In this document: positions 1 to 60,666 of the stretch, in pieces
Layout of the letters: the number at the start of each line of letters is the position of its first letter
How positions within the stretch are numbered: the first letter of the stretch is position 1
From: Fulvivirga sp.
GTDB taxonomy: Bacteria > Bacteroidota > Bacteroidia > Cytophagales > Cyclobacteriaceae
Length of the DNA stretch: 62,340 bases
Direction: 5' to 3'
Assembly: GCA_028280565.1 (NCBI GenBank)
Contig: JANQLQ010000318.1
Location: 1-62,340, forward strand
Translations under genes and position numbers: made by a program
The notes under the pieces: generated by a model
Seen by the model: only the letters and a program-made list of their open reading frames with translations
What the model was told of the DNA's origin: nothing
Databases searched by the model: none

Positions 1-89
1 GCTACGATTAAACAACACGAGCCGTATGAGCCGAGAGGCTCACGTACGGTTCTGTGAGAGGCTTAGGGGTGAAACTCCCCTTTGCCTAC
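1..89 (+). mobile_element. 3' end of a group II intron (domains V and VI)
   Basis: Positions 19-52 fold as a 34-nt group II domain V: a lower helix beginning GAGCCGTATG and closing with CGTACGGTTC, and an apical GAGA tetraloop at 33-36. A second hairpin follows at about 58-86 (GGCTTAGGGG...CTCCCCTTTGCC) and fits domain VI. The intron should end at the AC at 88-89, giving the usual 3' AY end. The reverse transcriptase/maturase gene and domains I-IV would lie to the left, outside the window. The family match is by recognition of the domain V sequence; the exact 3' splice site is inferred. It lies about 130 bp beyond the end of the cobalamin cluster. Confidence 0.85.
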
Positions 90-221
90 TCGGCGGCCTC
101 CTCAGCGTTCTTTGCGGTTAGACGTTGCACTACCTATCAAACAAACCAAGCCTGGAACAATTAATCCAGACATCAGCATGTTGCGGGTTGGGTCATACTA
201 CGTCATTCAAGACCAACGCTC

Positions 222-22246: not shown

Positions 22247-22282
22247 TGCTTTTGATCCCGAAAGCGTTAAGTTTAATAATTA

Positions 22283-22495
22283 AGGCAGGTCTTCTGACTT
22301 TCCCGGTTTTCGAAAGCCTTCCCATCCCGATAATTACTAGGACAGTGGCTAAAAGAAGCTCGAAAACACTGTAGTTGTAAAGACAACTACGGGATTACAG
22401 CAGCGGGTACTGTTCCGGATTCTCACCGGATTCCCTTTTAACGTACCTTATACTCAAATGATAAGTATACGACCCTAATCTGCCGTGAAGGTATT
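22283..22495 (-). ncRNA. Cobalamin (B12) riboswitch
   Basis: On the minus strand the leader contains the core motifs of the cobalamin riboswitch (Rfam Cobalamin, RF00174) in order: an early ACGGCAGAT segment, GGGAATCCGGTGAGAATCC, the GCTGCTGTAATCCC region, GCCACTGTCC, and finally the B12 box AGTCAGAAGACCTGCC just before 22284. The last base lies about 36 bp upstream of the start codon of the binding-protein gene. Binding of adenosylcobalamin or related cobalamin normally lowers expression of downstream uptake and synthesis genes. No clear terminator hairpin with a U-run follows, so control may be translational. Confidence 0.96.
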
Positions 22496-57666: not shown

Positions 57667-58134
57667 TTAAATTTCCAGGTGCATATTTCTGCTTATGCTT
57701 TCTTCCAGTGATATCATGGTATCAGTCCTGACTATCCCGTCGATGCCTTGGATCTTATCGTAAAGGACATCCTTCAGATGGTTGGTATCTCTGCAGTAGA
57801 TCTTGGCGAACATGCTGTAGTTACCGGTAGTATAATGGACGCTAACAATTTCCGGGACTAGCTTTAGCCTAGCGATCACCTCGTCATATAGGGCACTTTT
57901 TGAAAGGAAAATGCCGATGAAAGCTGTAATGTCGTACCCCAGTTTGGAATAATCGATATTCAGGGTAGTGCCTTCTACTATGCCCATATCCTCTAATTTT
58001 TTCATACGTACATGAACGGTACCCCCGGACACAAAGACCTGTTTAGCCACTTCTGTATAGGGTTTTTTAGCGTTTTTGGTAAGTACCTCTAATATTTTGA
58101 GGTCGACATTATCAATTTCATAATTTGCAGGCAT
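57667..58134 (-). CDS. Lrp/AsnC-family transcriptional regulator
   Basis: A 155-residue regulator. The N-terminal helix-turn-helix is IDNVDLKILEVLTKNAKKPYTEVAKQVFVSGGTVHVRMKKLEDMGIVEG; the C-terminal RAM/AsnC ligand domain includes VPEIVSVHYTTGNYSMFAKIYCRDTNHL. Members respond to amino acids and often regulate themselves and adjacent genes. It is transcribed away from the tRNA-like RNA array, with 134 bp of very A+T-rich DNA between the two start points. Confidence 0.95.
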   Translation of the reverse strand: MPANYEIDNVDLKILEVLTKNAKKPYTEVAKQVFVSGGTVHVRMKKLEDMGIVEGTTLNIDYSKLGYDITAFIGIFLSKSALYDEVIARLKLVPEIVSVHYTTGNYSMFAKIYCRDTNHLKDVLYDKIQGIDGIVRTDTMISLEESISRNMHLEI

Positions 58135-58243: not shown

Positions 58244-58251
58244 TAACTTTG
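58244..58251 (+). promoter_or_regulatory. -7-type promoter box of the tRNA-like array
   Basis: TAACTTTG matches TAnnTTTG exactly. It lies 17 bp upstream of the first tRNA-like acceptor stem, so transcription should begin near 58258, about 10 nt before the RNA. A -33 element is not clear. The A+T-rich spacer is shared with the divergent Lrp/AsnC gene. Confidence 0.6.
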
Positions 58252-58268
58252 ATTCAACAATGTAACAC

Positions 58269-58411
58269 TGTAGGGTGTTGAAACTGGCAGACAAGCCCTC
58301 CGGTCTCGGGGGTGGAGATCCCGGTAGTGTCCGGGTAGGATAAATTTCTGACGGCATCCAATAGCAACAGGAACTAACTACTCCGTGGAGGTTCGAATCC
58401 TTCCCCTACAG
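58269..58411 (+). ncRNA. tRNA-like RNA with ~74-nt branched variable region, copy 1
   Basis: The 143-nt unit folds as a class II tRNA: acceptor TGTAGGG (58269-58275) with CCCTACA (58404-58410) and discriminator G; U8-G9; D arm TTG/CAA around an 11-nt loop containing GG (58278-58294), as in tRNA-Leu; anticodon-like arm CCCTC/GGGGG (58296-58312) with loop CGGTCTC; T arm GGAGG/CCTTC with loop TTCGAAT (58387-58403). The variable region 58313-58386 has closing stem GGAG/CTCC and two internal hairpins (CCCGG/CCGGG and TTTCTG/CAGGAA). CCA is not encoded. Position 33 is G, not U, so decoding is doubtful; anticodon position would read GUC. Not identified as a known family. Confidence 0.8.
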
Positions 58412-58439
58412 CTAAAGGTAAGATAAATAATCGTAACAC

Positions 58440-58584
58440 TGTAGGGTGTTGAAATTGGCAGACAAGCCCTCCGGTCTCGAGGGTGGAGATCCCGGTAATG
58501 TCCGGGTAGGATAAATTCCCGGTAGCTTCTAAGGTGGCAACGGGAACTAACTACTCCGTGGAGGTTCGAGTCCTTCTCCTACAG
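58440..58584 (+). ncRNA. tRNA-like RNA with ~76-nt branched variable region, copy 2
   Basis: A 145-nt copy with the same architecture, 28 nt after copy 1. Changes keep the fold: the anticodon-like stem becomes CCCTC/GAGGG (U-G to U-A), the acceptor 3' strand is TCCTACA (G-C to G-U), and the second variable-region hairpin becomes TCCCG/CGGGA (U-A to C-G and U-G to C-G relative to copy 1) with an apical loop two nt longer. The D loop (AAATTGGCAGA) and T loop (TTCGAGT) each differ by one transition. Confidence 0.8.
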
Positions 58585-58612
58585 CTAAATTGAGACAAAT
58601 AATTATGAACAC

Positions 58613-58755
58613 TGTAGGGTGTTGAAACTGGCAGACAAGCCCTCCGGTCTCGGGGGTGGAGATCCCGGTAGTGTCCGGGTAGGATAAATTCCTGGCGTCA
58701 TCCAATAACAACAGGAACTAACTACTCCGTGGAGGTTCGAATCCTTCCCCTACAG
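58613..58755 (+). ncRNA. tRNA-like RNA with ~74-nt branched variable region, copy 3
   Basis: A 143-nt copy almost identical to copy 1, 28 nt after copy 2. The second variable-region hairpin is TCCTG/CAGGA, intermediate between copies 1 and 2. As in the others, AACAC directly precedes the acceptor stem and GCTAA follows the 3' strand. The three copies repeat with a period of 171-173 bp including their spacers, so the array arose by tandem duplication. Confidence 0.8.
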
Positions 58756-58896: not shown

Positions 58897-58932
58897 AAAG
58901 GCTGTGAAGATTTCGTTTGCAGCCTTATTTTA
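58897..58932 (+). terminator. Terminator of the tRNA-like array
   Basis: AAGGCTG (58898-58904) pairs exactly with CAGCCTT (58920-58926), followed by ATTTT. It ends a transcription unit that would start near 58258 and contain all three RNAs, and lies about 50 bp before the acyl-CoA ligase gene. Confidence 0.7.
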
Positions 58933-58983: not shown

Positions 58984-60666
58984 ATGAGCGTATTTCCATG
59001 GGTGGAAAGATACCCACAAGGCATCCCTGATTCTATTGGTAATCTTGAATACGATAATCTTTTAGAGTTATTCGATACCATTTTCAGCCAGTATTCTTCA
59101 AAAGAGGCCTATGAGAATATGGGTAAAATCATGACGTTTAAGGATGTTGACGAGCAGTCGAAGCACTTTGCAGCCTTCCTTCAAAATAGGTTTGGTTTGA
59201 AAAAAGGAGACACGATCGCTCTTCAAATGCCTAATTTACTTCAATATCCTATTGCGTTGATCGGGGCGCTACGCGCGGGGCTCATCGTCGTGAATACGAA
59301 TCCTCTTTATACGCCACGGGAAATGAAACATCAATTCCTGGACTCCGGGGCAAAGGCCATTGTCATAGTGGCCAATTTCGCTTCTAATTTAGAGAAGATC
59401 AAGGAAGAGACCGGTATTGACAAGATCATTGTCACAGAGTTGGGAGATTTGCTGGGCGGATTCAAAAGTTGGTTGGTCAATTTCGTGGTAAAAAAGGTGA
59501 AGAAGATGGTGCCTCCGTACTCTCTTCCCACGGCGGTCAGCTTTAAACAAGCCCTGGCCGAGGGCGCCGGGCTGGAATACAAAAAGCCCACGATGAGCGG
59601 GGATGACCTGGCCTTTCTTCAATATACGGGAGGTACTACCGGGGTATCCAAAGGGGCCAAACTATCACATCGTAACATTATCGCCCATACCCAGCAAACT
59701 ACCCACTGGTTCAAACCCCTGCTGGACCAGAGCAAAGAACATATCATGATCACGGCGATTCCCTTATACCATATTTTTGCGTTAACGGTAAACGGGATGC
59801 TCATGTTAAGTGCCGGGGCTAAGAATGTCCTGATCACTAACCCTAGGGATATGAAGGGGTTCATCAAAGAGCTAAAAAAGCACCGCTTTACGCTTATGAC
59901 TGGGGTAAATACGCTCTTTAACGGGCTTTTGAACCAGGACGGATTCAAAGATCTTGATTTTTCCAAGCTTTACGGCACCATTGGCGGGGGCATGGCGGTG
60001 CAGGATTTTGTAGCGAAGAAATGGGAAGAGATGACCGGCAAGCCGCTTGTGGAAGGGTATGGCTTAAGTGAAACCTCACCCGTGTTGTCATGCAACCCGT
60101 TAGACGGCACTCACAAACTGGGTACGATCGGTATTCCAACACCAAGCACTGAAATGGTGATCCTTGACGAGCAAGGAAATCCTCTTAAAACCGGTGAGGT
60201 GGGCGAAATATGTGCGCGGGGCCCACAAGTCATGAGTGGCTATTGGAACAAAGAAGACGAGGATACTTTCTTTGAAGGCGGCTGGTTCAGGACCGGGGAT
60301 ATGGGCTTTATGGATGAAGATGGCTTTTTCAAAATTGTAGATAGGAAAAAGGATATGATCAATGTCTCCGGCTTTAACGTTTATCCTAACGAAGTCGAGA
60401 ATGTGGTCGCTAATCATCCGAAAGTGCTGGAGGTAGCCGCTATTGGGGTGCCGGATGCCAAGTCTACCGAGTGTGTCAAGGTATTTGTGATCAAATCAGA
60501 CGCGTCGCTCACGGAGGAAGAACTTTCGGAATATTGTCATGAGAATCTAACGGCTTACAAAAGGCCGAAACATATTGAATTCAGGGAGAGCCTGCCTAAA
60601 TCGAACGTGGGTAAGATCATCAGGAGAGAGCTGCGCGACGAAGAAATGGAAAAGGTAGGGGCTTAG
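58984..60666 (+). CDS. fadD: Long-chain fatty acid-CoA ligase (FadD-like)
   Basis: A 560-residue AMP-forming ligase. The nucleotide-binding loop is LQYTGGTTGVSKGAKLSHRN, followed by EGYGLSETSPVLSCNP, GWFRTGDMG, VDRKKDMINVSGFNVYPNEVE and the catalytic lysine in LPKSNVGKIIRRELRD. It activates fatty acids to acyl-CoA for beta-oxidation or lipid synthesis. Length and N-terminus (PWVERYPQGIPDSIG) agree with FadD. Monocistronic as far as the window shows. Confidence 0.95.
   Translation: MSVFPWVERYPQGIPDSIGNLEYDNLLELFDTIFSQYSSKEAYENMGKIMTFKDVDEQSKHFAAFLQNRFGLKKGDTIALQMPNLLQYPIALIGALRAGLIVVNTNPLYTPREMKHQFLDSGAKAIVIVANFASNLEKIKEETGIDKIIVTELGDLLGGFKSWLVNFVVKKVKKMVPPYSLPTAVSFKQALAEGAGLEYKKPTMSGDDLAFLQYTGGTTGVSKGAKLSHRNIIAHTQQTTHWFKPLLDQSKEHIMITAIPLYHIFALTVNGMLMLSAGAKNVLITNPRDMKGFIKELKKHRFTLMTGVNTLFNGLLNQDGFKDLDFSKLYGTIGGGMAVQDFVAKKWEEMTGKPLVEGYGLSETSPVLSCNPLDGTHKLGTIGIPTPSTEMVILDEQGNPLKTGEVGEICARGPQVMSGYWNKEDEDTFFEGGWFRTGDMGFMDEDGFFKIVDRKKDMINVSGFNVYPNEVENVVANHPKVLEVAAIGVPDAKSTECVKVFVIKSDASLTEEELSEYCHENLTAYKRPKHIEFRESLPKSNVGKIIRRELRDEEMEKVGA

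Follow-up and report, generated by a model that had tools for sequence, protein, structure and literature searches.

A tandem array of three tRNA-like units, found in a 62,340-nt stretch of a Fulvivirga sp. genome (the whole stretch analyzed, hereafter the window), belongs to an RNA family that, judging from sequence comparison, is real, occurs in many Bacteroidota, and is distributed more widely than the Cytophagales. In Rfam, nothing scored close to a gathering threshold, and a limited literature search gave no description of the family. We propose, with a probability of roughly 55%, that its members are stable RNAs derived from tRNA-Leu, tRNA-processed and non-decoding, whose anticodon loop and variable (V) arm domain would bind a conserved partner. 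There are no data on transcript, processing, charging, or binding.

The array and its tRNA frame

The features of the array and its surroundings are the following (bit scores are from R1, a covariance model built from 25 relatives; those of units 2 and 3 are not independent, both units being among its 25 rows):

57667-58134, minus strand: Lrp/AsnC regulator (Pfam PF01037), divergent neighbor and syntenic marker; in 60 loci a similar ORF lies close to the unit
58244-58251, plus strand: putative promoter -7 element TAACTTTG, from sequence; motif recurrent in the leaders of relatives
58269-58411, plus strand: unit 1 of the tRNA-mimic RNA, 143 nt, with C74 at 58412; 128.3 bits
58301-58307, plus strand: anticodon-like loop of unit 1, CGGTCTC (G33, U37), from sequence and comparison
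58313-58386, plus strand: V region of unit 1, 74 nt, with GGAG/CTCC stem, hairpin CCCGG/CCGGG, TAG/CTA helix, GATAAA/CTAA internal loop, and distal hairpin
58440-58584, plus strand: unit 2, 145 nt, with a 76-nt V region at 58484-58559; 126.6 bits
58613-58755, plus strand: unit 3, 143 nt, with a 74-nt V region at 58657-58730; 128.4 bits
58757-58780, plus strand: 3′ trailer with GGTTTAGTTTAAT, by eye similar to the motif found in the trailers of other arrays
58898-58926, plus strand: possible intrinsic terminator of the array, weak (1 found vs 1.0 expected by shuffle, no better than chance)
58984-60666, plus strand: AMP-binding enzyme of acyl-CoA ligase type (Pfam PF00501), downstream, syntenic marker

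The tRNA frame of the units is complete, with a 7-bp acceptor and D, anticodon, and T arms, on the basis of alignment and covariation. In the window, the acceptor is TGTAGGG/YCCTACA and is followed by TG, the D arm has the stem TTG/CAA and the 11-nt loop AAAYTGGCAGA, the anticodon stem CCCTC/GRGGG closes the 7-nt loop CGGTCTC in all three units, and the T arm is GGAGG TTCGART CCTTC, followed by G73 and C. These measurements agree with what the initial annotation had read from the window alone: three tandem units of 143-145 nt (143, 145, and 143 nt) with a class II tRNA frame, a constant 28-nt spacing (both gaps are of 28 nt), a Leu-type D arm with a 3-bp stem and an 11-nt GG loop, a T arm with a TTCRANT loop, and a variable region of 74-76 nt (74, 76, and 74 nt) between T-GGAG and CTCC-GT. 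Its anticodon-like arm is also present as a 5-bp stem with a 7-nt loop, but this loop looks unusable for codon reading. In the 9.05-Mb host assembly, the three window copies were the only full-length BLASTN matches and the only ones to which the covariance model gave more than 57 bits (150 of the 2,143 candidates were scored); the next five model matches were four ordinary tRNA-Leu and one tRNA-Tyr.

The units resemble tRNA-Leu in the 3-bp D stem, the 11-nt GG loop, the T-stem-GT boundary of the V region, and the elbow motifs, and C74 is encoded as in the host tRNA genes; by eye, the T arm of the host tRNA-Leu(GAG) is also similar. They differ from it in G73 instead of A73 (G73 followed by C in 188/189 distinct units, while all five host tRNA-Leu isoacceptors have A73), in U37, in a V region of 48-98 nt (range over 39 units), and in the absence of U33 from the window copies.

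Minimum free energy folding of single units gave no support to the fold (z of -0.06, -0.52, and -1.28) and did not recover the cloverleaf; the support comes from the comparison of relatives. In the alignment of 25 relatives, 93.4% of the cells were paired, and 12 of the 30 pairs changed on both sides, a number expected to be 7.0 and reached by none of 500 shuffles; the distal V stem was poorly paired there (68.8%). Among 231 distinct units, most varying columns paired above shuffles, for instance D position 10 (87.9% vs 48.8%), acceptor pair 7 (100% vs 85.4%), and V pairs 2 and 3 (95.7% and 93.9% vs ~70%). The excess was small at V pair 1 (92.2% vs 89.6%) and null at V pair 4 (95.2% vs 95.2%). 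On this comparative evidence, the tRNA-mimic fold is under selection, and its loss in homologues, which had been indicated as an outcome able to refute the reading, is not what we observed: relatives keep the fold with covariation.

Known RNA families were compared with the array. Rfam 15 gave no gathering-level match over it, RF00005 (tRNA) did not match at gathering, and the only tRNA-type matches at E ≤ 10 were tRNA-Sec on unit 2 (17.3 bits vs 47, E 1.7) and tRNA on a phage unit (12.6 vs 29). ARAGORN called no tRNA in the window and none in 60 unit-bearing loci (60 of the 119 stretches fetched were scanned). The original remark that no described family of this shape is known was supported in Rfam, where no family came near the gathering score. 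No description of the RNA was found in the literature covered by the search, which left out most subscription papers and bioRxiv preprints, nor in passages of the review PMC13191261. The unit shares with tmRNA the nature of a tRNA-ended bacterial RNA, but it shows no sign of a tag region, its tRNA frame is complete, RF00023 does not match the array, and the host carries its own tmRNA elsewhere, as well as five separate tRNA-Leu isoacceptors. GGAUAAA, GCCUAAC, and GUGGAGG also occur in the twister ribozyme; this candidate was rejected, with no Rfam twister match at E ≤ 10 and a hairpin joining GGAUAAA and GCCUAAC in the units. Elsewhere in the window, Rfam identified a cobalamin riboswitch (22267-22492, minus strand, 95.6 bits) and, at the window edge, a group II intron domain (17-94, plus strand, 59.6 bits).

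Matches to unit 2 were obtained by BLASTN in 128/148 genomes of the host's GTDB family (E ≤ 0.1). Using R1 at E ≤ 1e-14, the unit was found in at least 123 of these 148 genomes (at least 116 of the 135 good ones) and, with the strict cut-off applied to the class, in at least 69/395 genomes (at least 62 of the 339 good ones). Both counts are lower bounds, since only 8 or 22 candidates per genome were scored. A broader tally (339/395 class genomes at E ≤ 0.001) was not used because most of its matches under ~65 bits have a length of 82-86 nt, as ordinary class II tRNAs do. Three genomes of a family outside the class (f48) carry the unit with 98-99 bits. An exact-pattern scan of 84,980 species, one genome per species, returned at least 119 stretches, and the 80 loci among the matches listed all carry names of Bacteroidota. 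The relatives that the initial annotation had suggested looking for in other Cytophagales genomes are common there and beyond.

Anticodon loop, decoding, and charging

The consensus of the anticodon-like loop in the family is C/U-N-N-U-C-U-C. Among 189 distinct units (183 bacterial and 6 viral), position 37 is U in all and a purine in none, position 34 is G in 183 (U, C, and A are found in two each), and position 33 is U in 146, G in 42, including all the window copies, and C in one; the loop is CTGTCTC in 135 units. In the host, 37/37 parsed ordinary tRNAs (38 were called, one was unparsed) combine U33 with a purine at position 37. It must be considered that relatives were gathered with patterns or models containing the loop, which favors an invariant UCUC; the collection of 189 units allowed five mismatches. 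Selection seems to hold the sequence of the loop more than that of the stem, because in a 636-kb phage record the stem is TCTCC/GGAGA, against the bacterial consensus CCCTC/GRGGG, while the loop CTGTCTC stays unchanged. With U at position 37 and U33 often lost, codon reading by this putative RNA is unlikely.

Two explanations of the loop were dropped. The first was a pairing of its UCUC with the D-loop AGAC or with the 5′ V strand, as the loop remains constant when these partners change; the second was a mimicry of the 16S anti-Shine-Dalgarno sequence by CCCUCCUGUCUC, as the anticodon stem changes as a pair (CCCGC/GCGGG, TCTCC/GGAGA).

A charged role is not excluded because G34-U35-C36, C38, and G73 resemble tRNA-Asp, whose identity set is G34, U35, C36, C38, G73, G10, and G2-C71. 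The main rival to our reading, which we hold to be a minority possibility that deserves attention, is that AspRS charges the RNA and Asp is then donated to a non-ribosomal reaction, in the manner of the staphylococcal non-proteogenic tRNA-Gly, which serves peptidoglycan and is multi-copy and out of translation. The window copies have the loop GUC with C38, G73, and G2-C71, and the loop found in most units, CTGTCTC, is close to that of the host tRNA-Asp, CTGTCAC, which also has G73 and G2-C71. G2-C71 is kept in 231/231 units, within an acceptor whose pairs 1-3 are near constant (U-A in 227/231, G-C in 231/231, U-A in 226/231) and whose pairs 4-7 vary. The remaining element of the set, G10, is not met (U10 in the window, and U or A in 222/231 units), position 34 departs from G in six of the 189 units, the body is of Leu type with a large V domain, and no donor enzyme appears among the recurrent gene neighborhoods described below. 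The likeness to the staphylococcal tRNA-Gly lies in being multi-copy tRNA-like RNAs out of translation; the Leu-type frame, the extra V-arm domain, and the occurrence in viral contigs set the unit apart.

We consider it improbable that the units are ordinary decoding tRNAs with an oversized variable arm. Such a tRNA would account for the complete frame, for the position beside tRNA genes in viral contigs, and for U33 where it is kept, but it would not be expected to have U37 in every unit or to lack U33 in 43/189, all window copies included, and a separate tRNA-Asp is present both in the host and in a viral contig (L074).

Gene context and the variable-arm domain

The assignment of TAACTTTG as a -7 element rests on what we take to be the Bacteroidetes consensus, TAnnTTTG; a sigma-70 promoter scan of the window is not applicable to promoters of this type. 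Among 162 distinct bacterial leaders, 106 contain TAnnTTTG (vs 5.6% by shuffle), and 48 of these 106 also have TTG at the expected position of the -33 box. The trailers of last units hold a terminator-like hairpin followed by a run of T in 151/161 cases (14.7% in shuffled trailers). In the absence of RNA-seq data, these promoter and terminator signals suggest transcription. Synthesis and maturation of the RNA probably follow the tRNA route, with cleavage by RNase P and tRNase Z and the addition of CCA being inferred only: the evidence is indirect and consists of the short gaps to upstream tRNAs in viral contigs (4 nt in 14 of them) and of C74, encoded after the discriminator in 37/37 parsed host tRNA genes as well.

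Some further elements were observed around the units. Among the matches listed, several genera have a conserved trailer, GGTTATTTTGGGTTTATTGTTAATTGACTAA, between the last unit and the terminator (L088, L101, L108, L147, L152, and others), and other lineages have TTTGGGTTAATGTTGTT as trailer. In one genome (G128, locus L425), a trailer-like stretch and terminator seem to be kept without the unit. Just upstream of the unit at 5244 in L095 and in an inter-unit gap of L189 (2662-2888, minus strand), degenerate copies of the unit are interrupted, in the D loop or the anticodon arm, by the palindrome TCCCGATAGCTATCGGGA, which looks like a dispersed repeat.

Gene neighborhoods were analyzed as clusters of similar ORFs over at most 168 partly redundant loci, with Pfam names taken from the window proteins. 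The first recurrent type has a divergent Lrp/AsnC regulator (60 loci), SufB beyond it (44), and the AMP-binding enzyme downstream (38), and the window is of the same type. The second has a pseudouridine synthase upstream (37 loci) and a large protein downstream (40), without Pfam match in the one example analyzed. This recurrence points to vertical inheritance rather than mobility of the predicted gene. In genomes G010, G049, and G113, the Lrp and AMP-binding genes are side by side without the unit (the downstream gene was assigned by eye); as the neighborhood is kept and the site is empty, the unit is not essential there. G049 and G113 belong to the same genus as G147, which has 11 tandem copies, and in G042 only a truncated relic with trailer was found (26.9 bits). 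A mobile or selfish tRNA-derived repeat, or a set of tRNA pseudogenes, could produce tandem copies such as these 11 in one array, but it is already hard to sustain in front of the recurrent neighborhood, the promoter and terminator, and the compensatory changes.

In the longer members, alignment and RNAalifold depict the V arm as a GGRG/CYCC stem, a 3-bp helix, an asymmetric internal loop RANAAA/CUAA, a distal stem, and a tip. Over the 177/189 units in which both strands of the internal loop were found, the three pairs of the helix beside it are formed in 95, 89, and 80% of cases vs 85, 69, and 53% in shuffled data (0/500). In the window, this core takes the form of a TAG/CTA helix around GATAAA/CTAA. 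Toward the 3′ end of the V region, 169/189 units contain CTAAC. From these comparisons, the conserved core of the V arm is the RANAAA/CUAA internal loop between covarying helices. At the tip, GACCAC, in the context GGRUWGACCAC, is kept in 41/189 units (35 of them bacterial) and is absent from the window copies; held by many members, the GGRUWGACCAC tip looks like the ancestral state. The initial annotation had described two extra hairpins forming a three-way junction. Both hairpins exist in the window copies, but the arrangement is not general in the family: the hairpin CCCGG/CCGGG, which the junction needs, falls in a gap in 13/25 aligned units, and the three-way junction is, on the alignment, a local addition in the window copies.

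The variation in V-region length could recall a tRNA gene with an intron, of group I or other type, in the variable arm. This seems very improbable, since no intron or ribozyme family matched over the scanned units, motifs in the insert are conserved and its helices covary, and the tRNA left after its removal would still lack a purine at 37 and, in the window, U33. The exclusion of a group I intron in the first reading holds, with no Rfam intron match over the array and a 7-nt anticodon loop closed by its stem. Bacterial Y RNAs (YrlA) are tRNA mimics that occur in phages, as the unit does, and UUGACC is in the tip of the longer members; a Ro60-bound Y RNA with a tRNA-like module was nevertheless rejected and is largely refuted for the window's host, because TROVE (Ro60) proteins are found in 11/148 family genomes, not including the window's, vs at least 123/148 with the unit, and no Rfam match was obtained.

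Viral copies and proposed role

The unit was detected by model matches in 63 viral contigs (in L077 and L278 the stretch ends inside the copy). A tRNA or tmRNA call is no more than 1 kb away in 40 of them, and in 22 the unit is directly behind a tRNA (≤60 nt), which is a tRNA-Ser in 17. In the 14 viral contigs mentioned above the gap is of only 4 nt, so that cutting would be needed. ARAGORN made a tmRNA call on 9/63 of the viral loci with the unit. Five BLASTN searches against phages and plasmids, in which units of the window or of relatives were the queries, yielded a single phage match. As separate observations, in the 287-kb viral contig L076 the unit (1316-1484) is 26 nt before a tmRNA call (1511-1856), and an extra hairpin-like stretch is present inside the D loop of phage copies L084, L079, L076, L072, L254, L256, L263, L264, and L270.

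Perfect V-tip palindromes of at least 10 nt were found in 33/48 phage units, with 12 different sequences, and of at least 8 nt in 41/48 vs 21% by shuffle. Among the bacterial units, palindromes of at least 8 nt are present in 56/183 (one is a run of N) vs 15.6% by shuffle, and GAGCTC in 65/183. It speaks against a general role of the palindromes that the window copies have none at the V tip and that those of at least 6 nt are in 99/183 bacterial units vs 47.5% by shuffle. Because palindromes of at least 8 nt exceed shuffles in phage and some bacterial units, they suggest that the RNA may form loop-loop dimers in those lineages.

A second set of phage RNAs came out of a search with the 3′ part of a tRNA-Leu-type shell as pattern. 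The shell, AGTCAGGTGGCG...ACAGGTTCGAATCCTGTCCTGACTA, is constant, and its interior, of ~15-140 nt, is different in nearly every copy (113 of the longer interiors fall into 90 clusters). These loci (L300-L419, L073, L074, L078, L308, L314, L330, and L416) have up to 7 copies per stretch. The function of these hypervariable tRNA-shell RNAs is unknown, and they may be a more surprising object than the unit family itself.

In the reading we prefer, a non-decoding tRNA mimic, RNase P and the tRNA 3′ pathway would cut the units out of the array precursor and CCA would be completed from the encoded C74, both steps being inferred. The mimic would not decode; its fixed loop NNUCUC and its V-arm domain would instead be the binding site for a conserved partner that probably acts in translation or tRNA metabolism, which is also an inference. 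Large phages would need the same partner (the hosts of the viral contigs are unknown), and we propose that this is why they have a copy of the gene alongside their tRNAs. The palindromic tip of the phage form suggests that two molecules pair. A wider idea, which remains tentative and which we would not expect to hold in full, is that, next to tRNA and tmRNA, these RNAs make up another class of stable RNA with a tRNA end: a non-decoding, CCA-tailed mimic whose V arm docks a protein or the ribosome, dimerizing by its palindromic tip at least in the phage form, brought along by large phages, some of which would extend the principle to the hypervariable tRNA-shell RNAs.

Stable bacterial RNAs known to mimic tRNA are few, and one of them, tmRNA, marks a process as central as ribosome rescue. 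Since the gene is small, absent in some genomes, and multi-copy in others, it lends itself to deletion and pull-down tests. A conserved mimic present in many Bacteroidota and in viral genomes, which the tRNA and RNA-family searches applied here did not detect, would open a new way into translation or tRNA metabolism in a major phylum and into what phages need from it.
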